Part shown: positions 5,337 through 18,643 of the stretch, piece after piece
How positions within the stretch are numbered: the stretch's first letter is position 1
Layout of the letters: each line of letters opens with the position of its first letter
Assembly (NCBI GenBank): GCA_017882785.1
Contig: JADGOV010000012.1
Location: 1-46,325, forward strand
From: Frankiaceae bacterium
GTDB taxonomy: Bacteria; Actinomycetota; Actinomycetes; JADGOV01
Direction of reading: 5' to 3'
DNA: 46,325 nucleotides
The notes under the pieces: generated by a model
Database searches by the model: none
The model's input: only the letters and a program-made list of their open reading frames with translations
What the model was told of the DNA's origin: nothing
Translations under genes and position numbers: made by a program

Positions 5337-5439
5337 CGCATGTACGCAGGGCCTTCCCCGGCCACTCTCATTGCTGAGGGGCCGCGGTTGCTGAGGAGCT
5401 CCGAGCCGACGTCGCTCGACCGTGGGAGGCACGCTCAGC
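5337..5439 (+). promoter_or_regulatory. Spacer with a TTGCTGAGG direct repeat before the SDR gene
   Basis: TTGCTGAGG occurs at 5371-5379 and again at 5388-5396, 17 bases apart, upstream of the SDR gene at the left edge of the biosynthetic locus. A regulator site is possible; no known operator is recognised. The SDR ribosome binding site (GGGAGG) lies at the end of this spacer. Confidence 0.25.
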
Positions 5440-6315
5440 ATGCGCTATCTCGTCACCGGCGGTAGCGGGCTGTTGGGCCGCCGACTCGTGCAGCGGCTCG
5501 GCCAGGCGGCTGAGGTAGTCGGCACGTTCTGCTCGGCGCCGGTTGCGGGCTTGCCCCTCGTGCCGCTGAATGTCACCGAGCCGTCCCAGGTGAACGCGCT
5601 GATCGGCCCGGGTGCCTTCGATGTCTGCATCCACACCGCGGCCAACCGGAACCTCGAAGCGTGCGAGAGCAACGTCGGCAGGGTCATGCGGCTCAACGTT
5701 GAGGGCACCCGGTTCGTCGCGGAAGCGTGTCGGCGCGCGGGAACGCGCATGGTCTACATCTCCACCGATCACGTGTTCGACGGAGCACCGGAGGTCGCCT
5801 ACACCGAGGAGGACGATCCCCGACCGATCCAGGTGTACGGCTTCACGAAGCTGGCGGGTGAGTACCAGGCGCAGCGCACCGGCGGGGCGCTCTGCATCCG
5901 CGTGCCGGTACTGCACGGCGTGAGCCAACCGGATCAGCAGGAAACCTTCCCCACGCAGGCGCTGCGCCGACTTCGAGCCGGGCACACGGTCCCTGCGGAC
6001 GATCACCTTATCCGCTACCCGGTTCTCCTCGACGACCTCGTCGATGCCGTGGCCGAACTCATCGCCCAGGACGTCGAGGGCATCGTGCATTTCAGCAGCG
6101 ACCGGGGGGTGACGAAATTCGCCTGGGCCCGCCTCATCGCCGAGACGTTCGGCCTCGACTCCTCCCTCGTCCGCGCTCGCCCCGAGGGCGGTCGGGCGGC
6201 ACGACCGCGCGACAACCGCCTGCGGTCCAACCGGCTCGCTGGGCTCGGCATCCGCCCGCCGACCTCGATCGCCAACGCGACGGTATCGCTGCCGCAGTCA
6301 GCTGCCGGGACCTGA
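5440..6315 (+). CDS. RmlD-like extended SDR (NAD(P)-dependent sugar reductase)
   Basis: I choose ATG 5440 (MRYLVTGGSGLLGRRLVQRL), nine bases after GGGAGG, rather than the GTG at 5422. The 291-residue protein has the Rossmann motif GGSGLLG at the N-terminus, CIHTAANRNLEACESN, ISTDHVFDG, and the catalytic YGFTK (YxxxK). It ends with a C-terminal substrate region like dTDP-4-dehydrorhamnose reductase (RmlD). RmlD relatives reduce 4-keto nucleotide sugars, and MAT2B-like members are close in sequence. No other dTDP-rhamnose genes lie nearby, so its substrate is open. It is followed five bases later by the kinase gene, and the pair converges on the RiPP-like operon. Membership of that locus is inferred from position. 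Confidence 0.75.
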   Translation: MRYLVTGGSGLLGRRLVQRLGQAAEVVGTFCSAPVAGLPLVPLNVTEPSQVNALIGPGAFDVCIHTAANRNLEACESNVGRVMRLNVEGTRFVAEACRRAGTRMVYISTDHVFDGAPEVAYTEEDDPRPIQVYGFTKLAGEYQAQRTGGALCIRVPVLHGVSQPDQQETFPTQALRRLRAGHTVPADDHLIRYPVLLDDLVDAVAELIAQDVEGIVHFSSDRGVTKFAWARLIAETFGLDSSLVRARPEGGRAARPRDNRLRSNRLAGLGIRPPTSIANATVSLPQSAAGT

Positions 6316-6320
6316 AGCCG

Positions 6321-7388
6321 GTGGAGGAGCACCGCGATCCCGGTGATGGCGACCGCGGCGTCGTACGCGACATCCGTTGTGCCGGCGGCATCGTGACCAA
6401 ACGCGCGACGGTCGGGCGGGCGAAGCTCCTGGACGAGGTCGCCTGGCTGTCACGGCTTCCGGCGGACGTGCGCGGCTACTTCCCGCGGGTCCTGGCCACC
6501 CGACTCGGGCCAACCTGGGCCGAGTACGACATGCCGTACTCACCGTGGCCCAACCTCGCCCAGTTGCTCCTCGACGGCCAGCTGTCGGCCGACGATGCGA
6601 CCACCGCCGTCGAGCGGATTCTGTGCATGGCGTTCGACCGCATGTACCGGCGCAATACACGGCCGACTCCAGAGTGCTTCTTCCGGCGGAACTACCTGGA
6701 GAAGGTCGAGCGGCGTATGACCGTCGCGGAGGGAGCGTCCCCGCGCTTGGACCATCTGGTACGCGCGCCCACCCTCATCGTCAATGGCAGGACCGTCGAC
6801 AGTCCGCTGCGCCTGATCCGGCGGATCAGCACCGATGAGCAGTTGCTCGGGCGGCTCGCGGCGCCGCGACTTGGCATGGTCCACGGCGATCTCAAGTTCG
6901 ACAACATCCTCCTCGCGCCCGGCCCACTCGAGGCGTCGAGCTTCCTGCTGCTCGATCCGCGCGGGGCAACCTTCGCCGGTGGGGCGGAGGGGGATTATCT
7001 GGACGACATCGCCAAGCTCCGCACGAGCACCCTCGCGCTCTACGATCTCGTCCGAACCGGCCGCATGGTGGTCCAGGTCAGGGGCACGCGGATCTCAACC
7101 GCGCTCGACCAGGCAGCGTCGCCAACGGCGGGTGTGTTCGCGGCGCTCGACACAGCCCTCATGGGGTGGATGCCGGCCTGGGCCGCCGCCCGCAACGACC
7201 CGCAGTGGCGGCTCCGGCTGAGTTTCCTGACCCCGCTGCTCCTGCTCGCCAACGCGCCGTTTCAGCTGGCGCCGGTCACCGAGCAGACCGAGACCGTTGC
7301 GCTGGCGCTCTTCACGGCCGGCGCGCAGCAGCTACAGGCGGCGACGGACCCGTGGAGCCGGGGCTGGCAGCGGGCTAGCAGCAACTAG
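6321..7388 (+). CDS. Aminoglycoside-phosphotransferase-fold (APH) kinase
   Basis: The 355-residue protein has the eukaryotic-kinase-like fold. It has a catalytic loop MVHGDLKFDNILL (HGDLKFDN at about 188-195, with Asp190 and Asn195) and a metal-binding segment LLLDPRG (Asp212) in place of DFG. A likely nucleotide-binding Lys lies in the early strand segment IVTKRATVGRAK. APH-fold enzymes phosphorylate antibiotics, sugars, choline or homoserine-like substrates. Here it could tailor a sugar-like intermediate or protect the host. The GTG start at 6321 lies five bases after the SDR stop. Its own stop shares the tetranucleotide CTAG (7385-7388) with the stop of the convergent PdxJ-like gene. Confidence 0.7.
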   Translation: MEEHRDPGDGDRGVVRDIRCAGGIVTKRATVGRAKLLDEVAWLSRLPADVRGYFPRVLATRLGPTWAEYDMPYSPWPNLAQLLLDGQLSADDATTAVERILCMAFDRMYRRNTRPTPECFFRRNYLEKVERRMTVAEGASPRLDHLVRAPTLIVNGRTVDSPLRLIRRISTDEQLLGRLAAPRLGMVHGDLKFDNILLAPGPLEASSFLLLDPRGATFAGGAEGDYLDDIAKLRTSTLALYDLVRTGRMVVQVRGTRISTALDQAASPTAGVFAALDTALMGWMPAWAAARNDPQWRLRLSFLTPLLLLANAPFQLAPVTEQTETVALALFTAGAQQLQAATDPWSRGWQRASSN

Positions 7389-8113
7389 CCGACAGCCCGA
7401 AGGTAGTCGGGCAGGATGGCCACCGCCCCGGCAACGACGGCGTCGGCAATGAAGCGGTGGCCGACGGACACCTGATCGAGGTTTACCTGCTCGGTCAACG
7501 TGCGGAGCTGGGTCAGCCCGATGTCGTGGGCAGCGTGCACGGCCGTTCCCTGCCCGCGCGCGACGGCTGCCGCGGCGCGCAGGCGCTCGACCTCGGCGGC
7601 CTCCCGCTCGCCGCCGAAAGTCTCGACGAATCCTCGGCAGTTCAGCTCGACGCTGGTCGCGCCCGCGGCGGCGGCGAGCTCGATGCCCTCGGCAGCCGGA
7701 TCGCAGAACACGGAGACGAGGGTGTCCGGCCGAAGGCGCGCGACGGTGGCGCACAGCCGTTCCTGATCCTCAGCACCCGTCCAACCGCGTTGCGTCGTGC
7801 GGTGGCGGGCTTGGAACGGGGTGACGACGAAGGCGTGCACACTCTGCGCCGCCACGACGAGGTCGACCACCTCGGCGCTAAGGTCGCTACCGACATTCAG
7901 CTGCAGCTGACCGGTCCGCACCTCCTCCATCGCAGCCAGCGCCAGCACATCCTCGGGATGAACGTGGCGATGATCCGGCCACGGGTGGACCAGCACGGCG
8001 CGGCAGCCGCCGGCACACAGCGCCGCGGCGACACCCACCAAGTCGGGGTGTTGGCCGCCGCGCGAGGACCGCAGTAGTGCGATCTTGTTCAGACCGATGC
8101 ACAGTGTGGGCAT
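7385..8113 (-). CDS. Divergent PdxJ-like (pyridoxine 5'-phosphate synthase) homologue
   Basis: The 242-residue protein matches PdxJ along its length. GLNKIALLRSSRG aligns with GVNIDHxATLRxARG, VHPWPDHRHV with VHLREDRRHI, VSVFCDPAAEGIELAAAAGA with SLFIDxxxxQIxxAxxxGA, and QVSVGHRFIADAVVAGA with the phosphate-binding NIGHxxIxxAVxxG strand. PdxJ condenses 1-deoxyxylulose 5-phosphate with 3-amino-2-oxopropyl phosphate. His43, His50, Glu157 and His196 are kept. The catalytic Glu of LxLEMA is Asn73, the Glu of VPEKR is Phe100, and the DH of NIDH is missing. Actinobacteria normally make PLP with PdxS/PdxT, so this is probably a neofunctionalised enzyme acting on related phosphates. It is the last gene of the operon, six bases after the AurF-like gene. 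Confidence 0.75.
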   Translation of the reverse strand: MPTLCIGLNKIALLRSSRGGQHPDLVGVAAALCAGGCRAVLVHPWPDHRHVHPEDVLALAAMEEVRTGQLQLNVGSDLSAEVVDLVVAAQSVHAFVVTPFQARHRTTQRGWTGAEDQERLCATVARLRPDTLVSVFCDPAAEGIELAAAAGATSVELNCRGFVETFGGEREAAEVERLRAAAAVARGQGTAVHAAHDIGLTQLRTLTEQVNLDQVSVGHRFIADAVVAGAVAILPDYLRAVG

Positions 8114-8119
8114 GACTGG

Positions 8120-9121
8120 TCAGGTCAACAGTCCGTGTGCGGCGAACGCCTCGTGGGTCGCGGCGTCCTCCAGCGCCCCGACACCCCGGAAGCTGCGGAT
8201 CGTGGCCCGCGCGGCGGCCGCGATGCGATCGGTGGTCCGCGCCTCAAGGTAGGACTCGTCGAGGACCGCGGCCAGGTGCCTGTCCGGCAGCCCCTCCGCG
8301 CGCAGCGCGGCGGCGACGGCCGACAAGTCGGGTTCGAGGAAGGCGCGCACGAAATCCGGGATGCGGGGGCCGACGAGCTGTCGTTCGCGGGCGTCAACCT
8401 GCGGCCACAGAACCTGAAGGAAGCTGCGGAAATAGGCGTGGTGACGGCCCTCGTCGGCGGCATGGTCGGCCACGAGAGCGCGCAGCGCCGGCGGGAGCCG
8501 CTCGTCACGCGGGATGTCGGTGAGGATCGCCGAGACCAGGGTCTCACTGACCACGGCGAAGACGAGGTCGACGAGTCGCCGGCAGTCCGGGGGCAGGCTG
8601 TGCCGGATCTCGTCCAAGCGCCGCACGAATCGCGGCTGCACGGGAAAGAAGGGCGGGACTGCACTCGCCGTGTTGACCTGGTCGATGAAGTCATGGGAGA
8701 ACTGCGCGTGCCACGCCTCGTCCGTGGTGATGGCGAAGGCGTCGGCCTGCATCCGGGCGGGCACGGTGATGCCGGTCCGACCCAGGGAGATGTCGGTCGT
8801 CACCGGAATGACGGCGACCTGCTCGAGGACCTGGGTGAAGTGCAGGTACTGGTACAGCGACCGCACGAGCAGTCTGTGGACGGCCGACCCACCGCGCTCG
8901 GTGAGGAGCGGGTGCCGGGCGGCAGGGGCCAGCTCCGGCGGGAAGAACAGCACCCGACCGCCGTCCTCGCTGGTCACGCTCCCGTCAGCCAGGACGCGCC
9001 GTGGCTGGGTACGGACGCTGGCCCGGCCGTGCCAGTTGAGGAACCTGGAGTCATACGCCTCAGCCGGCGGACCGGTGGCGCAGCCGGGGACGGTGACGCG
9101 CAGCTCGTTCACCGTAGTCAT
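8120..9121 (-). CDS. AurF-type diiron oxygenase
   Basis: The 333-residue protein carries all seven iron ligands of the AurF (p-aminobenzoate N-oxygenase) family at nearly the same spacing: Glu100 (QVLEQVAV), Glu135 and His138 (TDEAWHA), Glu193 (VVSETLV), and His220, Glu224 and His227 (ADHAADEGRHHAYF). In AurF the ligands are 101/136/139/196/223/227/230. Family members oxidise aryl or alkyl amines to hydroxylamine, nitroso or nitro groups; some hydroxylate C-H bonds. In this operon the amine could come from the class III aminotransferase. The ATG at 9121 follows GAGGCGAGA. It sits 34 bases after the PqqD-like gene. Confidence 0.8.
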   Translation of the reverse strand: MTTVNELRVTVPGCATGPPAEAYDSRFLNWHGRASVRTQPRRVLADGSVTSEDGGRVLFFPPELAPAARHPLLTERGGSAVHRLLVRSLYQYLHFTQVLEQVAVIPVTTDISLGRTGITVPARMQADAFAITTDEAWHAQFSHDFIDQVNTASAVPPFFPVQPRFVRRLDEIRHSLPPDCRRLVDLVFAVVSETLVSAILTDIPRDERLPPALRALVADHAADEGRHHAYFRSFLQVLWPQVDARERQLVGPRIPDFVRAFLEPDLSAVAAALRAEGLPDRHLAAVLDESYLEARTTDRIAAAARATIRSFRGVGALEDAATHEAFAAHGLLT

Positions 9122-9155: not shown

Positions 9156-9458
9156 TCAGTAGGTGAGGATTCCGGCGCGGGTGAGCGTCAGGATGAGGTC
9201 CGCGACGTCGTCGAGCGCGCTCGCCCGGTCGATGTCGTACTCGACGCACAGCGCCCCGGCTAGTTCAGCCACCGACCGCTTCCCGTCCATGAGCTTCCAG
9301 ATGAACGTGGCCGACTCGGAGAGCTCCCGCGGCTCACTCGGGCCGGCAACGAGGGTCTTGCTCCGGTAGTTGCGGACCCGGGAGTCCAGGTGCTTGCGAG
9401 GGATCCTGTCCTGGTCGGGCATGCTGTCCTGGTCGGGCATGTTGTCGAATGTCGTCAC
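9156..9458 (-). CDS. PqqD-like RiPP recognition element (RRE) protein
   Basis: The 100-residue protein has a disordered N-terminus followed by a PqqD/lasso-B1-type winged-helix domain. The signs are LSESATFIWKLMDGKRSVAE, LAGALCVEYDIDRASALDDV and ADLILTLTRAGIL. PqqD domains bind the leader of a ribosomal peptide and present it to modifying enzymes; they have no catalysis of their own. This is the strongest pointer that the 22-residue gene at the operon start is a precursor. The start overlaps the nucleotidyltransferase stop (ATGA). The first codons contain a perfect 18-bp tandem repeat that doubles the peptide unit MPDQDS/R. Confidence 0.85.
   Translation of the reverse strand: MTTFDNMPDQDSMPDQDRIPRKHLDSRVRNYRSKTLVAGPSEPRELSESATFIWKLMDGKRSVAELAGALCVEYDIDRASALDDVADLILTLTRAGILTY
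9406..9441. repeat. Perfect 18-bp tandem duplication inside the PqqD-like gene
   Basis: The unit ctgtcctggtcgggcatg occurs at 9406-9423 and 9424-9441. It is in frame and adds MPDQD(S/R) twice, so each copy also offers an extra in-frame ATG. It lies in the unstructured N-terminal tail and should not disturb the domain. Confidence 0.9.
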
Positions 9459-10237
9459 AGCTGCACCTCACCGGCAATGTGCTGGCAGACCCGCAATACG
9501 TCCTCGACCCACTTCTCCGGGGCGGTCGGGTCGAAGTCACGCATGGTCTCGATCGCCCAGTAGTCCTCGAAGGTGAGTTCGGCCGGCGCGACGTCCTCCA
9601 TCCGGCGGGCCCGCCACTTCGCCTGTTCGTTGAACTCCGCATGGCTGGCGAGCAGCGCCTCCACCGCAGCGCCGAAGGCGTAGCGGGCGGCCAGGACGGC
9701 GCTGTGCAGGTCGCCGGCCTGCACCATGCCGACGGCGTCCTCGGTCAGCAAGTCCAACTCGTAGAGCGCCCGCGAGGCGATCATCGTCTTGACCGCGGCG
9801 TCGTCGAACTGCCGTGCCCGCCGGCTCAGCCACTCGGCACCGGTCACGACGTCGGCGAAGGCGAGCCGCTGCATGAACGCGGTTTCGTGCGTGGTCAGCG
9901 ACTCGGCCCGCGCGCGCCCCGCCTCGAACGACGCCCAGGACACCAGGCCGAGTAGCTCATCGACCTGACTGTCCGTCCAGTATTCGACGTCCCAGCGGCG
10001 GCCTTCGGCGATGAAGGCGTGAATGGGCACGGTACCTGGGGCCACCGACACCGGGCCCGTCTCCCCGTCCCCGCGGTTCCACGGCTCAGGAACGATCACG
10101 TACACGTCGACGTCGCTCGACGGGTTACCCCAGCCGCGGACGAGCGACCCGGCGAGGTAGATCGCCTCCGGCGCGGCGGGCAGCAGCTCGTGCTCCGCGA
10201 GAAGCTCGAGGCAACGATGCGGCGTGACGACTGTCAT
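9455..10237 (-). CDS. Minimal nucleotidyltransferase (pol-beta fold)
   Basis: The 260-residue protein has the NTase signature LAGSLVRGWGNPSSDVDVYV: Gly30-Ser31 with Asp42 and Asp44 as the metal-binding DxD. A likely third acidic residue lies in RWDVEYW (Asp83 or Glu85). The C-terminal half is helical, like aminoglycoside nucleotidyltransferases (ANT) and DUF4111 proteins. Such enzymes transfer AMP to hydroxyl groups of small molecules. Related proteins of unclear role occur in some lasso-peptide clusters. Here it could activate an intermediate or act in self-protection. It overlaps both neighbours by ATGA (10234-10237 and 9455-9458), so its translation is coupled. Confidence 0.75.
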   Translation of the reverse strand: MTVVTPHRCLELLAEHELLPAAPEAIYLAGSLVRGWGNPSSDVDVYVIVPEPWNRGDGETGPVSVAPGTVPIHAFIAEGRRWDVEYWTDSQVDELLGLVSWASFEAGRARAESLTTHETAFMQRLAFADVVTGAEWLSRRARQFDDAAVKTMIASRALYELDLLTEDAVGMVQAGDLHSAVLAARYAFGAAVEALLASHAEFNEQAKWRARRMEDVAPAELTFEDYWAIETMRDFDPTAPEKWVEDVLRVCQHIAGEVQL

Positions 10238-12474
10238 GAGAACGCTCCAAGGTGGGCACGGTGGGCGGCCGGGACGGCCGCCGGGCTGGTCAGGAGGAGG
10301 TGGCGATCGAGTGCTTCTTCCAGGAGCGCACCGACGCTGTCGTGGCTGGTGTTACTGAGGGCGAAGACCTCGGCCAGACTCCGGCGGCCGGTGATGGCGC
10401 GGAGGAAGGCGCACCACTCGGAGTCCTCCGTGGCGTCGATCACGAACTCCAACTGTCCGTCCACCGCGAGGTACCAGGTCTCCGACTCCCCGGCGGGGTG
10501 GACGAGCAGCACGTCCTCGGCGAAGTCGAGCACCGCTTCCGGCTGAAGCCGGGGAGCGGGCCGCAGCAGACGCTGCATGTCAGCGCGGTCCCGCGACCAG
10601 TCCTCGATGGTCAATGCCGGAGGAAGCTCGCGGCGGGGCGTTTCGACGTGGGCTGCCGGCAGGTCACGCGTCATGGCTTCGAGCAGCCCGAGGTTGATCA
10701 ACCGCAGCAGGAACTCGACGCCGCCGGGTTCCGGCTGCCGCTGAAGTCGGGACAACAGGTCACGCACCCCGCGCGGATCCAGGGCGTCGACCGCAACCGG
10801 TGCGCTGAGCGCCTCCTCGACGAGCGCCGCGCCGTCACGGGCGAGCATCCGGACGAACGTGCGGTGGGTGAACTCGGCCCCCGCGCCGTGGTAGAAGGGC
10901 ACCTTGGCGCGTTGCGCGACCTCGTGGGGCAGGAGGTCGCGCACCGCGCGGCGGAGGATCCCCTTGTCCCAGAGGAGGCGCGCCCGTCGGGCGGGCGGGA
11001 TCGTCGCGAGGAGTTCGATGATGCGGTGGTCGAGGAAGGGGACCCGGGCCTCGACGCCGTTTCCGGCCGCCGTACGGTCCTCATGCCAGCAGTTGTACTG
11101 CTGGATGTCGCGATACTTCCATGCGACGAATTCCGGGTAGCGGCGCCCGTCATCTCCTCCCGTTCGCCCCGCCAGGAAGCCGTCGGTGAGGAGGGGGACG
11201 TCGTGATGACGCCACCACGGAGCCAGGTCGGGGCGCTGGCTCAGCCGGCGCTGGCGAGCGAACCCGGCGATCGAGGACTCGAAGCCCTCCCATCCGGCGC
11301 CGCCGGAGAGTTGGGCCGAGTAGCCGCCATTGAACTCGTCGCTCGCCTGTCCCAGCAGCATGCCCCGCAGTTCCGGTCGCCGCACCTTGGCGAAGCGGTA
11401 CAGCTCGTACTTGTAGTACTGCTCCGGGCCGCACATCGGTGTTTCGAGGAGCCACAGCAGCCGCTTCCACTCCTCGACATCGGGCACCCGGTCGGCATCG
11501 AAGAGGAGCTGGTGGTTGGGCAGCTGTAAGGCGGAGGCGACGAGATGCGCGTACTCGGCGTCGCCATTGGCGAACGTGCTCCCGTTGAGGACGGTGAAGG
11601 TGTGCAGGCCGCCGATTCTGGCGGCCAGCGCGGCCACGGCCGCGGAGTCGACACCTCCACTGAGGAAGAGCCCGACCTCGGCGTCGGCTGTGGCGCAGTC
11701 GGCGACGGATTCCGACAGCAGATCGCGGTAGCGCTGCACGAAGTCGGCGTCGCTCATCGAACTGGCGCCCTCGAAGGACGGCAGCTGCCAGTACCGGTGC
11801 TGCCGGCGTGCTCCGGTGGCCAGGTCGATGGTCAGGATCGTGCCGGCCGGAACGACCTCGACCCCGCGGAACCAGGACGCCACCGGCTTACGGGTGAACT
11901 CCGGGGCCGCATTGAGGCACTGGTCGGTCAGCGCGGCGTCCCAGTCGAGGGCACGCGGGCAGCGGGGATCGGCGAAGAGGGCCTTGATCTCTGAGGCGAC
12001 GGTGACGCCGTCCGCGTGGCCAGCGACATAGAGGGGCTTGATGCCAAACCTGTCCCGCGCGAGGACGAGACGGTTGCGGCGGCGGTCCCAGAGGATGATG
12101 GCGAACATGCCGTGGACCTTGTCAAGGAACGACAGCCCGTCACGCGCGTAGAGGTGCGCGAGCACCTCACAGTCGGAGCGGGTCCGCCACGGGGTGTCCG
12201 GCCCCAGCGCTGCCCGCAGCTCGCGGTGGTTGTACACCTCGCCGTTCGCGACGAGCACAACCGAGCCGCCGCCGGCCGTCAGCGGCTGGTCGCCGCCGAG
12301 TGGGTCGACTAGAGCGAGGCGGCGGAAGACGAGACCGACAGGGCCGTCCCGAAAGAGCTGCTCGCCGTCAGGGCCGCGGTGGGCGACGGCTCGGCTGAGC
12401 GCGGCAAGCACGTCGTCGCTGCGCTGGTCCAGTGGAGCCCCACCGAATCGCGCCGTGCCGGCGATGCCACACAT
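10234..12474 (-). CDS. AsnB-type glutamine-dependent amidotransferase with extra C-terminal domain
   Basis: Starting at ATG 12474 the product begins MCGIAGTARFGG, with Cys2 as the Ntn nucleophile. The glutaminase residues look complete (FRRLALVDP, VANGEVYNH, RTRSDCEVLAHLY). The synthetase half has the PP-loop LFLSGGVDSAAVAAL. AsnB converts a carboxylate to an amide through an acyl-adenylate; lasso C proteins are relatives that close a ring. At 746 residues it is about 130 longer than usual. The extra tail (VLLVHPAGESETWYLAVDGQ, then WCAFLRAITGRRSLAEVFAL and SVGALLEEALDRHLLL) looks like a second small winged-helix domain. A 10-bp duplication upstream makes the start uncertain: GTG 12480 would bury the Cys behind Met-Ile-Met. 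Confidence 0.85.
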   Translation of the reverse strand: MCGIAGTARFGGAPLDQRSDDVLAALSRAVAHRGPDGEQLFRDGPVGLVFRRLALVDPLGGDQPLTAGGGSVVLVANGEVYNHRELRAALGPDTPWRTRSDCEVLAHLYARDGLSFLDKVHGMFAIILWDRRRNRLVLARDRFGIKPLYVAGHADGVTVASEIKALFADPRCPRALDWDAALTDQCLNAAPEFTRKPVASWFRGVEVVPAGTILTIDLATGARRQHRYWQLPSFEGASSMSDADFVQRYRDLLSESVADCATADAEVGLFLSGGVDSAAVAALAARIGGLHTFTVLNGSTFANGDAEYAHLVASALQLPNHQLLFDADRVPDVEEWKRLLWLLETPMCGPEQYYKYELYRFAKVRRPELRGMLLGQASDEFNGGYSAQLSGGAGWEGFESSIAGFARQRRLSQRPDLAPWWRHHDVPLLTDGFLAGRTGGDDGRRYPEFVAWKYRDIQQYNCWHEDRTAAGNGVEARVPFLDHRIIELLATIPPARRARLLWDKGILRRAVRDLLPHEVAQRAKVPFYHGAGAEFTHRTFVRMLARDGAALVEEALSAPVAVDALDPRGVRDLLSRLQRQPEPGGVEFLLRLINLGLLEAMTRDLPAAHVETPRRELPPALTIEDWSRDRADMQRLLRPAPRLQPEAVLDFAEDVLLVHPAGESETWYLAVDGQLEFVIDATEDSEWCAFLRAITGRRSLAEVFALSNTSHDSVGALLEEALDRHLLLTSPAAVPAAHRAHLGAFS

Positions 12475-12490
12475 GATCACACATGATCAC
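12471..12490. repeat. 10-bp tandem duplication at the amidotransferase start
   Basis: The decamer acatgatcac is present twice (12471-12480 and 12481-12490). It duplicates the start region so that the GAGG motif (12492-12495) is 7 bases from an out-of-frame ATG at 12484, 11 from an in-frame GTG at 12480 and 17 from the ATG at 12474 that gives the MCGIAG N-terminus. Confidence 0.9.
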
Positions 12491-13809
12491 ACCTCTTCCA
12501 GGTCGGGGACGGGCTTCCCGTTCGGGGACGGGGTTCGGTGTCGAGCCGGCCCGATCGGGCGCGACTCGGCCGTGAGGGTGCGGGTGTGCCGCAACGGCGA
12601 GAGCAGGATCGGTACCGGCGCGAGCAGGAAGACGGCCCCCACCACCCAGAGCGCTTCGCGGTTGCCGAGCTCCTCACCGAGTGCTCCCGCGATCACGGCG
12701 CCGACCGGCAGGACGCCCCAGGACACGAAGCGGACGGTCGCGGTGACCCGGCCGAGCAGCTGCGGAGGGGTCACCGACTGGCGGTAGCTGCGGGCAAGGA
12801 CGCTGAAGACGACCGTGCTGGCGGAGATGCCCGCCGTACCGGCGGCGAAGAACAGCAAGCCCGGACCGTCCACAGTCAGCGGGACCAGCAGCACGAGGAG
12901 AGGGCCGGCGGTCGCCGCGAGAAACAGCGCACCGACCGAGCCGAGCCGGGCGCTCAGCCACCCGACGGATGCCGCGCCAGCGATGCCACCGAGTCCCAGG
13001 CCACCGAGCAACACGCCGGCCATGCCCGGGGAAACCCCCACCGTCCGGACCAGGAAGACGACGACCAGCGCTTCCAGGGCGGCTCCGGCGAAGTTGAGGA
13101 CAGCAGCGGAAAGGGTGAGTGGCCCGATCACCGGGTGGCGGCGGACGAACCGCAGGCCGGCCATGATCTGGGAAGGGAGACCGGCCGCCGAGATGCGCGG
13201 CGGCGGTTGCTCATCGCGGCGGATGCCCAGCACGCACGCCACGGACACGGCGTAGCTGCCGACGTCGGCGAGCAGGGCCACCGGGGCGCCGAGCGCTTGG
13301 ATGAGTATCCCGCCGAGAGCCGGCCCGCCGACCTGCGCGACGGACTCACTGCCCTGCAGCCGACTGTTGGCCCGGAGCAGGTCGGCAGCTGCGATGACCG
13401 ACGGCAGATAGGCCTGGAAGGCGACGTCGAAGTACACGCTGGCGGTGCCGACGAGGAGCGCCACGATGATCAGGTGCGCCAGGGAGAGCGTGCCGAACGC
13501 CCAGGCGAGGGGGATGGACAGGAGCGCGAGGCCTCGGGCGGCGTCCGTGGCCAGGATCAGTGGCCGCCGCCGGACACGGTCCACCTGGGCTCCGGAGGGC
13601 AGCCCGAAGACCAACCAGGCGACGTAGCCGGCCGCGGTGACGAGTCCGACCTGGAACGTGGTGGCATCCAGGACGGTCAACGCGACCAGGGGCAGGGCAA
13701 TGCTGGAGACAGCCGTGCCGCACGCACTGACCGTCTGGGCGCCCCAGAGCAGCGCGAAGTCCCGCCGGGCGTCCGCCGAGGCCCGATGCCGGGCTGGCGC
13801 GGATGTCAC
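12487..13809 (-). CDS. MFS exporter of the biosynthetic locus
   Basis: I start at GTG 13809 (VTSAPARHRASADARRDFAL), which follows GGGAGGCGGG. The longer open frame overlaps the phosphatase gene and is not protein-like. The 440-residue protein has about 12 hydrophobic segments and begins LLWGAQTVSACGTAVSSIAL, with the loop FGLPSGAQVDRVRRRPLILA typical of the MFS enterobactin-exporter-like/DHA3 group. A role in export of the locus product is the likely reason for its place in mid-operon. The gap to the phosphatase stop is four bases, and its own stop lies 12 bases before the AsnB-type ATG. Confidence 0.85.
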   Translation of the reverse strand: MTSAPARHRASADARRDFALLWGAQTVSACGTAVSSIALPLVALTVLDATTFQVGLVTAAGYVAWLVFGLPSGAQVDRVRRRPLILATDAARGLALLSIPLAWAFGTLSLAHLIIVALLVGTASVYFDVAFQAYLPSVIAAADLLRANSRLQGSESVAQVGGPALGGILIQALGAPVALLADVGSYAVSVACVLGIRRDEQPPPRISAAGLPSQIMAGLRFVRRHPVIGPLTLSAAVLNFAGAALEALVVVFLVRTVGVSPGMAGVLLGGLGLGGIAGAASVGWLSARLGSVGALFLAATAGPLLVLLVPLTVDGPGLLFFAAGTAGISASTVVFSVLARSYRQSVTPPQLLGRVTATVRFVSWGVLPVGAVIAGALGEELGNREALWVVGAVFLLAPVPILLSPLRHTRTLTAESRPIGPARHRTPSPNGKPVPDLEEV

Positions 13810-13813
13810 GTTG

Positions 13814-14620
13814 TCACCCGCCTCCCGCCGGCCCCAGCACTTCCCGCAGCGCCGTGACAAGCAGCGCCGGAGCCGCCACGACCCAGTCGTTCTCCTCGCC
13901 CTTCGGCACGGCCACCGACAGCCCAGCCTCGCTGGCGACCAGCGCTCCCGCCGCGTAGTCGTAGGGCGCCAGCCCCGTCTCGCAGTACGCGTCGAGCTTC
14001 CCGGCGGCCGCCGAGCACAGGTCGATCGCGGCCGAGCCCGAGATGCGGACGTCGGCGACCCATGGCAGGAGGCGGGCGATGGCTGCGACCTGCCGGGCGC
14101 GAGCCTCACGTGGATAGCAGAAGCCAGTGCCGATAACGGCCTGAGCCAGGACCTCCGTCTGCGAGCCGTGGATGCGGCCTCCGTTGGCCCAGGCACCGCA
14201 CCCGCTGGCCGCGCTGTAGGTGACGTCCAAGGCCGGCGCGTGCACGACGCCCACCAGCGGCGTCCCGCGGGACTCCGCGGCGATGGACACGGCCCACTGC
14301 GGGAGCCCGTGGAGGAAGTTGAGAGTGCCGTCCAGCGGATCCACGATCCAGCGCAGGCCGGAGGATCCACCTATGCTCGCCAACTCCTCCCCCAGCATCC
14401 CGTCGTGCGGACGCTCGGCGAGCAGGAGTGAGCGGATCAGCGACTCGCTGGCCAGGTCCGCATCGGTGACGAAGTCGGTCTCGGACGTCTTCGCCCCAAC
14501 CGGCGTCGCCGTACCCCACCTCCGCAGCAACTCCTCCCCGGCCGCAATTGCCACGCCGGCCGCAAGCTCGGCGATGCGTTCCTGATCGGCGAGCCGGACT
14601 CCGCCGTCGTGCAGGGTCAC
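13814..14620 (-). CDS. Inositol-monophosphatase-family phosphatase
   Basis: From GTG 14620 (VTLHDGGVRLADQERIAELA), overlapping the upstream PfkB stop as GTGA, the protein has 268 residues, the standard length. Family motifs are present: TDFVTDADLASESLIRSLLL, LGEELAS (metal-binding Glu), WIVDPLDGTLNFLHGLPQWA (DPLDGT metal site) and LAPYDYAAGALVASEAG, where the usual WDxAAG is YDYAAG. IMPase-family enzymes release phosphate from inositol, histidinol, fructose-1,6-bisphosphate or PAP, depending on subfamily. Together with the two kinases upstream it suggests a phosphorylated intermediate that is later dephosphorylated. Confidence 0.85.
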   Translation of the reverse strand: MTLHDGGVRLADQERIAELAAGVAIAAGEELLRRWGTATPVGAKTSETDFVTDADLASESLIRSLLLAERPHDGMLGEELASIGGSSGLRWIVDPLDGTLNFLHGLPQWAVSIAAESRGTPLVGVVHAPALDVTYSAASGCGAWANGGRIHGSQTEVLAQAVIGTGFCYPREARARQVAAIARLLPWVADVRISGSAAIDLCSAAAGKLDAYCETGLAPYDYAAGALVASEAGLSVAVPKGEENDWVVAAPALLVTALREVLGPAGGG

Positions 14621-15549
14621 GAGAGCCCGCCGCCGTTGGCGAGTGCGCACGCTGCCCCGGCCCGATCGGGGGGGAGCCTCGGACCCGCTACGCCACACTT
14701 GAGCGCGGCGAGAACAGTCCCGAACTGCAGCCGCGCCGCGAAGTCAGCACCGTTGACGAGTCCGGCGACGTACCCGGCGTGGAAAGCGTCTCCCGCCCCG
14801 GTCGAGTCCACGACCGCGCACTGTCGGCCAGGGACACGCGCAGGTGCGTCAGTCCCGTCGACGCCGACGGCCCCGTCGGCTCCCAGCGTGGCGACGACAG
14901 CCCGCGGCCCTGTGCCCTGCGCTGCGCGTAGCACGCGCAGCGGCTCCGTTTCACCCGTCAGGGTTCGCAGTACCTCCAGAGGTGCGATGAGGTCGCTCAC
15001 CCGGGAGAGGACGGGCAGGGTGCACTCGGACACCTCCTCCAGGTCCGCGACCACCGGCAGTCCCCGGGCCCGCCCGAGGTCGGCGGCTGCCGCCGCCGCG
15101 GATCCCTCGTGATTGTCGAGGTAGACCAGGCTGGCACCGGCCACGAGTTCCGGCGTGATCGTCTCAGCGGTCAGGTGGAGCCGCTTGTCCTTGTACATGA
15201 CGATGGAACGGCTGCCGGTCAGTGAGTCCACGAGGATGGCGGCCCGATGGGCCGGGCAACCGGGCACCGAGATGGACCCGGTCAGGCTCATCCCCACGTC
15301 TTCTAGCGAACGACGGGACAACGCGCTGTCCTCGTCGTCGCCGAACGCGCCGACGTACTCGACGGGAATTCCGAGAATGGCAAGCCCGTGGGCGACGTTC
15401 GCCGCCTGTCCGCCTGCGTACACGGCAAGGGACTCCGCCTGGCTCTTGCGGTCGGGGCTTATCGTGCCAGGCATCCGGAAAACGAGATCCACGGTGTTGT
15501 TGCCGATGACCAGAACCCGCCGTTGCCGGTCAAGAGTGCTTTCCTTCAC
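14617..15549 (-). CDS. PfkB-family sugar kinase
   Basis: The 310-residue protein has the ribokinase/PfkB layout. VLVIGNNTVDLVFRMPG comes first, then the substrate loop YAGGQAANVAHGLAILGIPV at about 44-63. Near the C-terminus the signature VDSTGAGDAFHAGYVAGL has the catalytic Asp of TGAGDAF. These kinases phosphorylate furanose sugars, adenosine, inosine or related polyols with ATP. It begins with ATG 15549, overlapping the P-loop kinase stop (ATGA), and ends in a GTGA overlap with the phosphatase. It may supply the phosphate ester that a PdxJ-type enzyme needs, though this is inference. Confidence 0.85.
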   Translation of the reverse strand: MKESTLDRQRRVLVIGNNTVDLVFRMPGTISPDRKSQAESLAVYAGGQAANVAHGLAILGIPVEYVGAFGDDEDSALSRRSLEDVGMSLTGSISVPGCPAHRAAILVDSLTGSRSIVMYKDKRLHLTAETITPELVAGASLVYLDNHEGSAAAAAADLGRARGLPVVADLEEVSECTLPVLSRVSDLIAPLEVLRTLTGETEPLRVLRAAQGTGPRAVVATLGADGAVGVDGTDAPARVPGRQCAVVDSTGAGDAFHAGYVAGLVNGADFAARLQFGTVLAALKCGVAGPRLPPDRAGAACALANGGGLS

Positions 15550-16166
15550 GACGCGACGGCAGCCTGGTCGAGAAGCCCGCAGTAACGCAGGATCTGCCGC
15601 GACACCTCCTCGACCGAGCAGTCCGTTGTGTCGAGGATGAGCCAGTCCTCCTCCGCGGGCAGCAGAGTGCTCAGGAAGGACTCATAGTCCTGATGCAGGC
15701 CGGGGTTGGCCCGCAGGTACCGGTCACGCGGCGATGTCGCGGCTCGCCGCTCCGCCCGCTGCGCCTTGGTGGCGGCCGTTGAGGTAAGCAGGACGTTGTG
15801 CCCGAACGGCCGGTGCGCCTCGAAAACGTACTCCCCCGGCATGATCTGTTCACCGGGGTAGAAGAACGCGTTCCGGCCGACCTGGGTCAGCCAGTGCCGG
15901 TCCTGGACCCGGTAGTCGTCGGGAGGCGTCAGCATCGACAGGTCGGCGACGAGCGCCGCGGAGTAGTAGTAGTCGCGCGTCCGCATGTCGTCGTACTTCG
16001 CAGCCTCGTTCTCGAGGAACTCCGTCAACGGGCTCGGCTGCACGTAGCAGCGTCCGAGGCTGGCCGGTCGCGCCAATTCGTTGACGAGTTGCGTCAGCCG
16101 GCGGGCGACGGTTGTCTTCCCGACGAAGTCGACGCCCTCGATGAGAACGCCGTCAATGGGCTCCAT
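15546..16166 (-). CDS. P-loop kinase (thymidylate-kinase-like)
   Basis: The 206-residue protein opens with DGVLIEGVDFVGKTTVARRL, a Walker A loop (GVDFVGKT, residues 11-18) in the style of dTMP kinases. It has a DRHWLTQ segment where dTMP kinases have the DR(Y/H) substrate motif, and a basic lid-like segment TKAQRAERRAATSPRDRYLR. The C-terminal half diverges from true Tmk, so the substrate is probably not dTMP. Similar orphan kinases occur in antibiotic clusters. The ATG at 16166 lies 31 bases after the dehydrogenase stop. Its TGA overlaps the PfkB start. Confidence 0.65.
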   Translation of the reverse strand: MEPIDGVLIEGVDFVGKTTVARRLTQLVNELARPASLGRCYVQPSPLTEFLENEAAKYDDMRTRDYYYSAALVADLSMLTPPDDYRVQDRHWLTQVGRNAFFYPGEQIMPGEYVFEAHRPFGHNVLLTSTAATKAQRAERRAATSPRDRYLRANPGLHQDYESFLSTLLPAEEDWLILDTTDCSVEEVSRQILRYCGLLDQAAVAS

Positions 16167-16197: not shown

Positions 16198-17238
16198 CTA
16201 CTCTGCGGACACCCTGACGATCACCTTCAGCGCCGCGGCATTGGGGGAATACGCCTTCTGGCGCAGATCGCAGCCGAGAAGGCTCAGTGCAGCCGGGACG
16301 TCCTCGAGCGGAACAACGTGCGAGATGAGGCTCGCCGCCGGAATCTGGCCGGAGGCCAGGAGGCTCCGGGCATCATCGAAGGTGCCGAGGGAATCGATCG
16401 ACCCGATGAGGGAGATGCTCCGGTCCGCCAGGAGGCCGAGGTCGATCTCCGCTCGGCGGGTACGGAGCGCGACGAGCAGCACCTGACTGCCGGCGGCCAT
16501 GAACGGAAGGAGCGAGGCGTCGAAGTGCCCGCTCGTGTCCACGAGGATGTCGAAGTCGCCGCCTCCTTCCGCGGTCGCATCCGCCACCGATGCCCGGATC
16601 ACCCAGCCGTGGGGTGCCAGGACCTTCTCGGCGAGGGCTCCTCGATCGGCGGCCGGCTCGATGGCTGTCCCGCGTACGCCGCGCATCCCCAGGGCGAGGG
16701 CGTACAGCAGGCCGACAGGCCCCAGGCCCAGCACCATGCAGGTCGCGGCCGGCCGCACGATGAGTTGGTTGACCCCGGTCAGCACACAGCCCAACGGCTC
16801 GGTCAACGCCCCCTCTTCATAGCTCAGCTCGGGCGGCAGCGGGTGCAGGAAGCGTTCGCTGGTCACGTAGTACTCGGCAAGCGTGCCGTCGCTGCTCACC
16901 CCGGCTTCGGTGCCATCCTTCAGTGCGCAGTGGTTAGTCCGTCCCGTCCGGCAGAACCGACACGTGCCGCAGAAGAAGGTGGGGTTGATGACCACACGGT
17001 CGCCGGCGTGGAAGGAGCGCACGGCGGCGCCGGTCTGCACGACGACCCCGGTGGCCTCATGACCGAGCACCACCGGCGGACGGCTGGCGTCGTAGACATC
17101 CCTGACGATCCCGACGTCAGTGCCGCAGATGCCGCATGCCATGACCCGTACGAGGCAGTCAGTGGGACTGCTGAGCGTCGGCACCGGGCGATCGAGGACG
17201 TCCAGCTGCCAGGGCCCGCTATAGACCAGCGCTCGCAT
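16198..17238 (-). CDS. Zinc-dependent medium-chain alcohol dehydrogenase
   Basis: The 346-residue protein is a full-length MDR enzyme. It has the catalytic-zinc motif MACGICGTDVGIV with downstream LGHEATGVV, the four-Cys structural zinc lobe NPTFFCGTCRFCRTGRTNHC, and a Rossmann segment MVLGLGPVGLLYALALGMRG. Close functional classes are sorbitol/threonine dehydrogenases and the 2-deoxy-scyllo-inosamine dehydrogenases of aminoglycoside pathways. It would oxidise a secondary alcohol to a ketone, a natural partner of the aminotransferase just upstream, whose last 20 bases overlap this start. In the PdxJ context such a step would mirror PdxA chemistry; that is inference. Confidence 0.85.
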   Translation of the reverse strand: MRALVYSGPWQLDVLDRPVPTLSSPTDCLVRVMACGICGTDVGIVRDVYDASRPPVVLGHEATGVVVQTGAAVRSFHAGDRVVINPTFFCGTCRFCRTGRTNHCALKDGTEAGVSSDGTLAEYYVTSERFLHPLPPELSYEEGALTEPLGCVLTGVNQLIVRPAATCMVLGLGPVGLLYALALGMRGVRGTAIEPAADRGALAEKVLAPHGWVIRASVADATAEGGGDFDILVDTSGHFDASLLPFMAAGSQVLLVALRTRRAEIDLGLLADRSISLIGSIDSLGTFDDARSLLASGQIPAASLISHVVPLEDVPAALSLLGCDLRQKAYSPNAAALKVIVRVSAE

Positions 17239-18643
17239 GCTGTGTTCCTTCCACGTCTCGCACGCTTTCTACTTCTCGCACACTCGCGTCACACACACTG
17301 GCGCCCAGCCGATCGACGATCTCCTCCAGGTCGCTCTCGGTCGCGATGAGCGCCGGGCGAACCTTGAGGATGTGGCCGCGGCCGTATTCCGAGGAGCGGG
17401 TGATCAGGTGGTGCCGATCGCGGGCGATGCCCACCACGGCGCGCGCCGTCTCCGGGTCGGGCCTCCCGGCAGCGTCGACGATCTCGACTCCCCACATCAT
17501 GCCGACGCCGCGCACCTGCCCCACCCGCGGCTGCCGTTGGGACAAGGAGGACAGGAGCCCCCCCAGATAGGCGCCGCGCAACCGGACGCCGGCCAGGAAG
17601 TCCCTCGCGCCGACAACGTCCAGCGTCGCTTGCGCTGCCGCGAGGCCCAGGAGGTTGCCGCCACCGGTGAAGGAGTGGTCCGAAGTCTGCAGCACGTCAA
17701 GTTCCGACCGCATGAGGACTGCCCCGATAGGCACGCCCACTCCGCCCAGCCCCTTGGCCAGCACGATGATGTCCGGCCGAATGTCGAAGCGTTCGCTGGC
17801 GAGGAAGTAGCCGGTCCGGCCCACTCCCGTTTGCACCTCGTCCGCGATGAGAAGGATGCCGAGGTCGTCACACACCCGCCGCAGCGCACGGAAGTAGCCT
17901 TTCGGCGGCACGATGTTGCCGCCGTTGCCGAGCACCGGCTCGACGATCAGGCAGGCGGTCGAACCGCGACCGGCCTGCGCCGCGATATCGCTGATGCGGC
18001 GGGCGCAGAGCAACTCACATGAGGGATAGGTCTGGCCGTAGAAGCACGACGCGCAATTGGGCTCCGGCACGCGCAGAATGCCCCCCGAATTCTGCAGCGG
18101 GAAGCCCTCCCGGCGCCACGCCGGCCCCGACATACTCGTGGTCAGTGCGGTCTGCCCATGATGTCCGTGGAAGAGCGTGATGACGTCGGACTTACCTGTG
18201 GCCTTCTGCGCGATCTTGACGGCGCACTCCACTGCGGTCGACCCCGTGGCGTCCCGAATCCACCCCGCCCCCATCTGCGGTGGGGCCAACGCGAGGAGGC
18301 GATCGAGGAGGCTCTGCGCATACGGGCGGGCGAGATCGGAGCTGACGTGGCTCATCAGGCTGGCTTGCTGCTGCACCGCGGCGACCACGTGGGGATGGTT
18401 GTACCCGAGCGGGAGATTGAAGGTCCCGGAGACTGCATCGAGATACTCCGAGCCGTCCGCACAATGCAGACGCAAGCCGTTGCCTCTGGTCACCAGCGGT
18501 ATGGCCGGCATGGTGTCCCCGGACAACGGCGCACGACTGTCCGGGAGCCTTCTGCCGTGCTGGCGTCGCCGACCCGCGGCCACGTCGGCCTCGACGGGTC
18601 GGCTGAGAGCAACAGCCGGATGAATCATCGCGGGCTCAGCCAC
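17219..18643 (-). CDS. Class III PLP-dependent aminotransferase
   Basis: I start at GTG 18643, eight bases after GGAGGAC. The 474-residue enzyme has all fold-type I class III marks: YLDAVSGTFNLPLGYNHPHV, LFHGHHGQTALTT, LLIADEVQTGVGRTGYF and the Schiff-base Lys in IIVLAKGLGGVGVPIG. It has the cysteine-bearing insert EPNCASCFYGQTYPSCELLC seen in some bacterial members. Such enzymes move an amino group between omega-amines or keto-polyols and 2-oxo acids. Sitting directly after the peptide gene and overlapping the dehydrogenase, it probably aminates the ketone that enzyme makes. Daptide pathways also pair such an aminotransferase with a dehydrogenase, but their substrate is a C-terminal Thr, which is absent here. 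Confidence 0.9.
   Translation of the reverse strand: MAEPAMIHPAVALSRPVEADVAAGRRRQHGRRLPDSRAPLSGDTMPAIPLVTRGNGLRLHCADGSEYLDAVSGTFNLPLGYNHPHVVAAVQQQASLMSHVSSDLARPYAQSLLDRLLALAPPQMGAGWIRDATGSTAVECAVKIAQKATGKSDVITLFHGHHGQTALTTSMSGPAWRREGFPLQNSGGILRVPEPNCASCFYGQTYPSCELLCARRISDIAAQAGRGSTACLIVEPVLGNGGNIVPPKGYFRALRRVCDDLGILLIADEVQTGVGRTGYFLASERFDIRPDIIVLAKGLGGVGVPIGAVLMRSELDVLQTSDHSFTGGGNLLGLAAAQATLDVVGARDFLAGVRLRGAYLGGLLSSLSQRQPRVGQVRGVGMMWGVEIVDAAGRPDPETARAVVGIARDRHHLITRSSEYGRGHILKVRPALIATESDLEEIVDRLGASVCDASVREVESVRDVEGTQHASAGL

Follow-up and report, generated by a model that had tools for sequence, protein, structure and literature searches.

Contig JADGOV010000012.1 of a Frankiaceae bacterium (assembly GCA_017882785.1), which was analysed over positions 1 to 46,325 of its forward strand (46,325 nucleotides, hereafter the window), holds at positions 7385–8113 a gene for a divergent relative of PdxJ. 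The locus raises the question of what such a protein does in an actinobacterium, an assignment with which the GC content and the Streptomyces relatives of the operon genes agree. In its accessible text, a survey describes the 1-deoxy-D-xylulose 5-phosphate (DXP)-dependent route to vitamin B6 as almost exclusive to Gracilicutes, Cyanobacteria excepted, and takes pdxJ, where present, as that pathway's signature (PMC9997740). We propose, with moderate confidence, that this bacterium acquired a class II PdxJ, which then changed rapidly and was co-opted into an azasugar-type operon of 11 genes, where it stands last. There, the enzyme probably serves a new ring-building step.

Identity and predicted fold of the PdxJ-like protein

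The open reading frame (ORF) at 7385–8113 is uninterrupted and encodes 242 amino acids on the minus strand, which the original prediction had left unstated; a plus-strand reading was ruled out by an internal stop in frame. Residues 4–238 match the Pfam family PdxJ (PF03740, E 2.3e-44), so that homology extends over the full length. The best match among solved structures by sequence was 6w6a, the PdxJ of Stenotrophomonas maltophilia (E 2.8e-28). The protein fell under the cut-off of all six listed NCBIfam equivalog models for PdxJ, the top score being 164.6 against 222 bits. AlphaFold was run on a 42-sequence alignment, consisting of the protein itself and 41 of the 80 comparison loci described below, and returned a model with a mean pLDDT of 89.5 and a pTM of 0.87; residues 91–110, which cover the active-site loop, had low pLDDT (66 and 59). 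Foldseek superimposed this model on 6w6a with a TM-score of 0.92. In the VIA comparison, seven PdxJ entries matched at Z 29.2–33.0, including 6w6a (33.0, rmsd 1.8 over 238 aligned residues), 1ho1 (31.4) and the Campylobacter enzyme (29.2), while the next entry stood at 19.3. As modelled, the protein has the PdxJ fold, and the earlier claim of a PdxJ homologue with a recognisable fold is borne out by both the Pfam match and these Z-scores.

Normally invariant active-site positions are replaced

The active site was assessed in an alignment of the PdxJ-like protein with E. coli PdxJ and 81 other sequences, namely 6w6a and the best 80 of at least 584 relatives. These 80 comparison loci, 28–36% identical to the protein, are a sample picked by two motif patterns that include PdxJ motifs (one being the NKIA pattern) from at least 597 stretches scanned, at least 584 of which are relatives. 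Several positions that are invariant in all 81 sequences are changed (E. coli residue first): Asn9 to Gly7, Asn18 to Ser16, Arg47 to Trp45, Glu72 to Gly75, Thr156 to Cys159, Asn190 to His193, and Gly192 to Ala195. Position 155, which is His in E. coli, Tyr in 80 sequences and Phe in one, is Asn158. The retrieval patterns permitted both Gly7 and Trp45, yet neither occurs in any of the 81. The Arg47 that is replaced belongs to the HxR motif and presumably binds substrate. Retained, in E. coli numbering with our residue in brackets, are Arg20 (R18), His45 (H43), Thr102 (T106), Glu153 (E156), His193 (H196), and Gly215-His216 (G218-H219). We take Arg20, His45, Glu153, and His193 to have active-site roles, and Gly215-His216, the glycine-histidine positions of beta-7/beta-8, to bind phosphate.

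Glu72, which we assume to be the catalytic residue, was aligned by several methods. Gly75 stood opposite it in a 4-sequence MAFFT alignment, in the 83-sequence alignment, under three MAFFT modes, in three hidden Markov model (HMM) alignments, and in phmmer against 3f4n; only phmmer against 6w6a paired it with Asn73. None of these alignments placed a Glu at the equivalent position of our protein, where all 81 comparison sequences have one, and Gly75 is the best-aligned residue for it. For the roles of Glu72 and Arg47, no demonstration was found in the open-access literature searched, judged partly by titles and abstract openings.

The original prediction of an altered active site therefore stands in substance, since normally invariant positions are replaced and a search of the sequence alignments for a conserved Glu at the catalytic position found none. 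Its details fared unevenly. It was right that the catalytic Glu is lost and wrong, in all alignments but one, in naming Asn73 as the replacement. The proposed shortening of NIDH to NK was mistaken: GLNK aligns to NIDH without a gap, and the changes of D to N and H to K are the normal NxNK (class II) type found in 81 of 81 sequences (partly by selection), which leaves Asn9 to Gly7 as the only unusual change in this first motif. The reading of VPEKR as TPFQAR was correct in outline, with Pro99 kept and Phe100 occupying the position of E. coli Glu96, which is Asp in the 81 others. The closing loop of PdxJ comprises residues 95–105, according to the accessible part of one study (PMC10471632).

The residues that are kept bear on one alternative, in which a PdxJ-fold isomerase or epimerase with a lost second substrate site would act on an azasugar, for instance turning mannojirimycin into nojirimycin. 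The kept His and Glu might be enough in principle for proton transfer, and the VIA entries that follow PdxJ include the sugar-phosphate barrels TrpF and ribulose-phosphate 3-epimerase (Z about 18–19). However, these are general barrel matches that lie far under PdxJ, and epimerisation has no direct evidence behind it; we consider this function unlikely.

The PdxJ-like protein is not the vitamin B6 enzyme of its host

The host genome, assembled at 3.2 Mb in 230 contigs (99% complete, 1.56% contamination), contains a single PdxJ, the gene at 7385–8113. PdxS (1.6e-106) and PdxT (1.4e-56) are both present and lie side by side on contig C184, the result of a check that had accompanied the original prediction. 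The partner enzyme PdxA gave no match in this 99% complete genome, and its positive control matched in 5 of 14 genomes. Because pdxS and pdxT are adjacent and pdxA is absent, the PdxJ-like protein is not the B6 enzyme of the host, and a normal B6 role was ruled out on these grounds. The distribution of the family agrees with the earlier claim. PdxJ exceeded the Pfam cut-off in 1 of 393 genomes of the class, the host itself, and in none of 394 genomes from the family of G355 and none of 35 from the family of G055. A second class genome gave a 19.6-bit partial match below the cut-off. With the PdxJ-like protein as query, 396 genomes of the phylum (samples of class, family and phylum overlap) returned the protein itself and one 19.6-bit partial match. 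The weak partial matches in G080 and G444, 19.6 bits each, were taken as chance.

A genuine pyridoxine 5'-phosphate (PNP) synthase that raises the supply of pyridoxal 5'-phosphate is extremely improbable in our view. The assignment to the PdxJ family speaks for it; against it stand the absence of pdxA, the presence of pdxST, the six missed equivalog cut-offs and the changed active-site positions.

Relatives and origin of the gene

In a FastTree phylogeny of 83 sequences with E. coli as the root, the protein grouped with four class II sequences from Proteobacteria (L070, L041, L082, L080) at a support of 0.30, the next node having 0.66. Its terminal branch measured 2.94, versus 0.81 for the next longest when the E. 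coli outgroup is set aside. This placement, weakly supported and on a long branch, is compatible with a class II PdxJ that was acquired and then evolved rapidly. Relatives were found neither among genome contigs nor among viral contigs in searches that reach close relatives only, and 3 of 72,556 plasmid records matched the protein, at 28–32% identity. Contamination or a foreign island was rejected on composition: 3-kb windows of the operon have a GC content of 0.68–0.72, and their tetranucleotide distances lie inside the span seen elsewhere on the contig. An ancient transfer would be compatible with this composition.

A long branch could also mark a relic or scaffold without catalytic function, or a passenger that plays no part in the pathway, and the lost catalytic Glu and the lack of close relatives in our searches are in keeping with this. 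Nevertheless, the ORF is intact, its codon-position GC (0.78/0.49/0.84) resembles that of the neighbouring genes, it begins 6 bases after the aurF-like gene in a tight operon, and several active-site residues are kept. We therefore regard a relic or passenger as very unlikely.

A tight operon with an azasugar signature

The prediction that this PdxJ relative sits inside a biosynthetic operon was supported. The operon comprises eleven genes on the minus strand, from 18643 down to 7385, and the successive intergenic distances are -20, 31, -4, -4, 4, 6, -4, -4, 34, and 6 bases, values that use chosen likely GTG starts at 14620 and 13809. In operon order, with two plus-strand genes at the end, the features are:

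17219–18643, minus: GabT1-type class III aminotransferase, first operon gene, with a Paenibacillus polymyxa match and 11 of 16 consensus positions
16198–17238, minus: GutB1-type zinc aminopolyol dehydrogenase, 43% identical to P. polymyxa gutB1
15546–16166, minus: P-loop kinase-like protein, 206 amino acids, weak below-cut-off matches only
14617–15549, minus: PfkB-family sugar kinase, by family matches
13814–14620, minus: inositol-monophosphatase-family phosphatase (PF00459, the family of the azasugar enzyme YktC1), chosen GTG start 14620
12487–13809, minus: predicted exporter of the major facilitator superfamily (MFS), chosen likely GTG start 13809, longer ORF to 14370
10234–12480, minus: AsnB-like glutamine-hydrolysing amidotransferase, scoring above the cut-off of TIGR01536, its C-terminal extension having no Pfam match
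9455–10237, minus: nucleotidyltransferase-domain protein (PF01909)
9156–9458, minus: PqqD-family small protein, 100 amino acids (PF05402, E 2.8e-14)
8120–9121, minus: AurF-like diiron N-oxygenase (PF11583) with EQ, DEAWH, SET, and HxxxExxH motifs
7385–8113, minus: divergent PdxJ-family protein, 242 amino acids, last operon gene, by ORF, Pfam, alignment, and structure search
6321–7388, plus: weak match to the phosphotransferase (APH) family below cut-off, convergent with the pdxJ-like gene, possible cluster member
5422–6315, plus: RmlD/SDR-type (short-chain dehydrogenase/reductase) reductase, converging on the operon, possible cluster member

No polyketide synthase (PKS) or nonribosomal peptide synthetase (NRPS) was found among the operon proteins scanned, and the window gave no Rfam match at the gathering score, no tRNA, and no tmRNA. 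The P-loop protein at 15546–16166 had no match in the 72,556 plasmid records and no convincing relative in the PDB; possibly, it is a novel small kinase belonging to this pathway.

The hallmark of azasugar clusters, as given in the available text of PMC8382821, is an aminotransferase, a phosphatase (PF00459 or HAD), and a dehydrogenase. The top-ranked plasmid matches of our aminotransferase and dehydrogenase are adjacent genes of P. polymyxa. The aminotransferase is 53% identical, over 83% of the query, to the gene beside gutB1, and the dehydrogenase is 43% identical, over 99% of the query, to gutB1 itself, annotated as 2-amino-2-deoxy-D-mannitol dehydrogenase. Of the 16 fixed positions in the published aminotransferase consensus (PMC8382821, available text), the operon protein has 11 with one gap, and the next-best non-overlapping site in the same protein has 5. 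The aminotransferase and dehydrogenase ORFs overlap by 20 bases, which places a GutB1-type gene directly next to a GabT1-type gene. The phosphatase (PF00459, E 9.9e-57) is the third gene after the dehydrogenase and the fourth after the aminotransferase; we counted it under the rule that a PF00459 or HAD phosphatase lies within three ORFs. Judged from these sequence comparisons, the operon carries the azasugar three-gene signature. The accessible text of PMC8466323 describes the three genes as initiating the pathway and reports 'disordered' Streptomyces clusters with one to three interleaved genes, including APH, ROK, and others. Words that start with 'pyridox', 'Pdx', 'asparagine', or 'kinase' are absent from the main text of PMC8382821.

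In two other class genomes (L136 and L137), an AurF-like match, Pfam-confirmed for L136 only, lies beside azasugar-type genes, which favours our proposal. At L136 (10074–18269), the aminotransferase matches in two pieces, and the azasugar-type and AurF-like genes are accompanied by an intradiol-dioxygenase-like gene, a ROK/APH fusion, and a weak class II tRNA-synthetase match. L137 (4409–11758) has azasugar-type genes and an AurF-like gene in an order that, by eye, resembles L136. The host contig C215 (L141, 3196 bases) carries a second GabT1-like aminotransferase, 44% identical to that of the operon and reaching the contig end, together with an ORF after it in the phosphatase position and an APH-like kinase 30% identical to the 6321–7388 gene. 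The host may thus hold two azasugar pathways, as far as these gene matches suggest.

The AsnB-AurF pair

The second recognisable gene set consists of the amidotransferase and the N-oxygenase. The AsnB-like protein scored 333.3 bits against the TIGR01536 cut-off of 267.1 and contains MCGIAG, with the Cys nucleophile, and SGGVDS. Its C-terminal part (10234–10650, minus strand) has no Pfam match, falls within the matches to plasmid homologues, and looks PqqD-like by eye. The AurF-like protein was aligned to AurF (3chh), and its diiron-ligand motifs are present, the ligand identities being those we assume for AurF. According to the accessible text of PMC5719088, AsnB-like and AurF-like enzymes are proposed to form the hydroxamates of actinonin and matlystatin. 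For trichostatin, the same text has TsnB7 hydroxylating glutamine with the helper TsnB6 and TsnB9 transferring hydroxylamine; a TsnB6 homologue is described as absent from the actinonin and matlystatin clusters (PMC5719088). In our operon, PqqD is only a candidate for a TsnB6-type helper.

Cassettes with AsnB, AurF, MFS, nucleotidyltransferase, and PqqD genes occur on three Streptomyces plasmids (L108, L109, L110), and contig C1 of genome G184 (L113) has AsnB, AurF, and MFS matches. The AsnB-AurF-MFS cassette is possibly a mobile module for N-oxygenation or hydroxamate formation. Transposases are annotated near each of the three plasmid cassettes; the L113 cassette lies, by eye, between housekeeping-looking genes.

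Proposed role in a nitrogen-ring pathway

The original prediction, read strictly, was of a two-substrate synthase with altered substrate choice that forms a pyridine by condensing an amino-carbonyl compound with a sugar phosphate, be it DXP or another. The PdxJ fold with H196, E156, T106, and G218-H219 would suit this, and the PfkB kinase and the P-loop protein could provide phosphorylated partners. However, the equivalents of Glu72 and Arg47 and loop residue 96 are changed, the PdxA family has no match among the operon proteins scanned, and the aminotransferase-dehydrogenase-phosphatase set yields an aminopolyol rather than an amino-ketone in the described systems (PMC8382821, PMC8466323, in their available text). 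A strict two-substrate synthase appears doubtful to us. Given the azasugar signature and the AsnB-AurF pair, neither of which the original prediction had recognised, the likely substrate is an aminopolyol or azasugar rather than an amino-ketone, and besides a two-substrate condensation the reaction could be an epimerisation or take place intramolecularly on a ring.

For the recruited PdxJ-like enzyme, we envisage the following scheme. The aminotransferase, dehydrogenase, and phosphatase would give an aminopolyol carbonyl compound of the mannojirimycin type, whose oxidised end would close on the nitrogen and which an operon kinase may phosphorylate. The PdxJ-like barrel, with H196, E156, and Gly-His kept and the Glu72 and Arg47 equivalents lost, would act on the nitrogen ring or its open form by Schiff-base or enamine chemistry, which could bring about closure, dehydration towards a 3-hydroxypyridine, or the joining of a second unit, and would not make pyridoxine phosphate. 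Installation of a hydroxamate or N-oxygenated group would then fall to AsnB and AurF, perhaps with PqqD, and export of the product to the MFS protein. We prefer ring formation or modification over the other reactions of a PdxJ-like enzyme. As a more tentative suggestion, a GabT1/GutB1-derived aminopolyol aldehyde (azasugar) may be converted into a new nitrogen ring, for instance a 3-hydroxypyridine or a carbon-extended azasugar, and then into a hydroxamate by AsnB and AurF, giving a class of compounds that joins azasugar and B6-type chemistry.

Several observations weigh against recruitment into an azasugar-type pathway. The aminotransferase fits 11 of 16 consensus positions versus all 16 in the P. 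polymyxa protein, and two kinase-like genes separate the dehydrogenase from the phosphatase. A PdxJ match at E 1e-3 was found in none of ten azasugar-type loci (L123–L125 and L136–L142, including C215 of the host), and the four cassette stretches (the three Streptomyces plasmids and G184) gave no PdxJ match either. A second genome with this type of PdxJ was not found in the searches above, which leaves no further genome in which to compare co-inheritance with azasugar genes. No close GabT1-type gene turned up in the three Streptomyces plasmid records, the best in G184 being 38% identical; GutB1 was looked for in the fetched stretches only. Among nine AurF loci fetched from the class, AsnB and MFS matches occur at a single one, L113; at the other eight, AurF is the sole match to the genes of the window, so that AurF by itself does not predict the cassette. 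Moreover, without its catalytic Glu the protein could have lost its enzymatic activity. Since the compared cassettes and azasugar loci lack a PdxJ match, we view the PdxJ gene as an unusual addition to two known gene sets.

In the open-access literature, no report was found of PdxJ together with AurF, of PdxJ together with nojirimycin, of an azasugar linked with asparagine synthetase, gene cluster, and N-oxygenase, or, judged by titles and abstract openings, of a cluster of this kind with a PdxJ-like protein. To the extent that this literature goes, the combination of azasugar and hydroxamate genes with a diverged PdxJ appears undescribed, with one example so far. A PdxJ with an altered active site, in an azasugar-type operon of a genome that has pdxST and lacks pdxA, would be an exception that annotation by the pdxJ signature misreads. 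If our proposal is true, a ring-forming barrel enzyme has gained a role in specialised metabolism and could supply a late step of azasugar biosynthesis. As a defined target, the operon lends itself to heterologous expression.

Comparison with known systems

With the class II PdxJ enzymes of S. maltophilia (6w6a) and Bacteroidota, the PdxJ-like protein has in common homology over the whole length, the predicted fold, and NK in the first motif, and it keeps His43, Arg18, Glu156, His196, and Gly218-His219. It differs in an identity of at most 36% (among the best matches found) and in the replaced equivalents of Glu72, Arg47, Asn9, Asn18, Asn190, and Gly192. Unlike the class II enzymes, it is found in a host with pdxST and without pdxA, within an operon of apparent specialised metabolism.

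The azasugar clusters of Bacillus (GabT1/YktC1/GutB1), P. polymyxa, and Streptomyces share with the operon the class III aminotransferase with its consensus region, the zinc dehydrogenase, and the PF00459 phosphatase. In contrast to these three-gene clusters, the operon adds PdxJ, AsnB, AurF, PqqD, and a nucleotidyltransferase, and has two kinase-like genes between dehydrogenase and phosphatase.

The Streptomyces plasmid cassettes L108, L109, and L110, which are not among the three plasmid records that match the PdxJ-like protein, have five gene types as in the operon, with 29–50% identity over the matched stretches; the PqqD of L110 is annotated and was not matched. The operon has PqqD and nucleotidyltransferase genes in place of a PKS or NRPS, neither of which was found among its scanned proteins. 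In this it differs from the hydroxamate pairs ActJ/ActI, MatC/MatA, and TsnB9/TsnB7, which are likened to it by gene type: they, too, combine an AsnB-like and an AurF-like enzyme in one operon.

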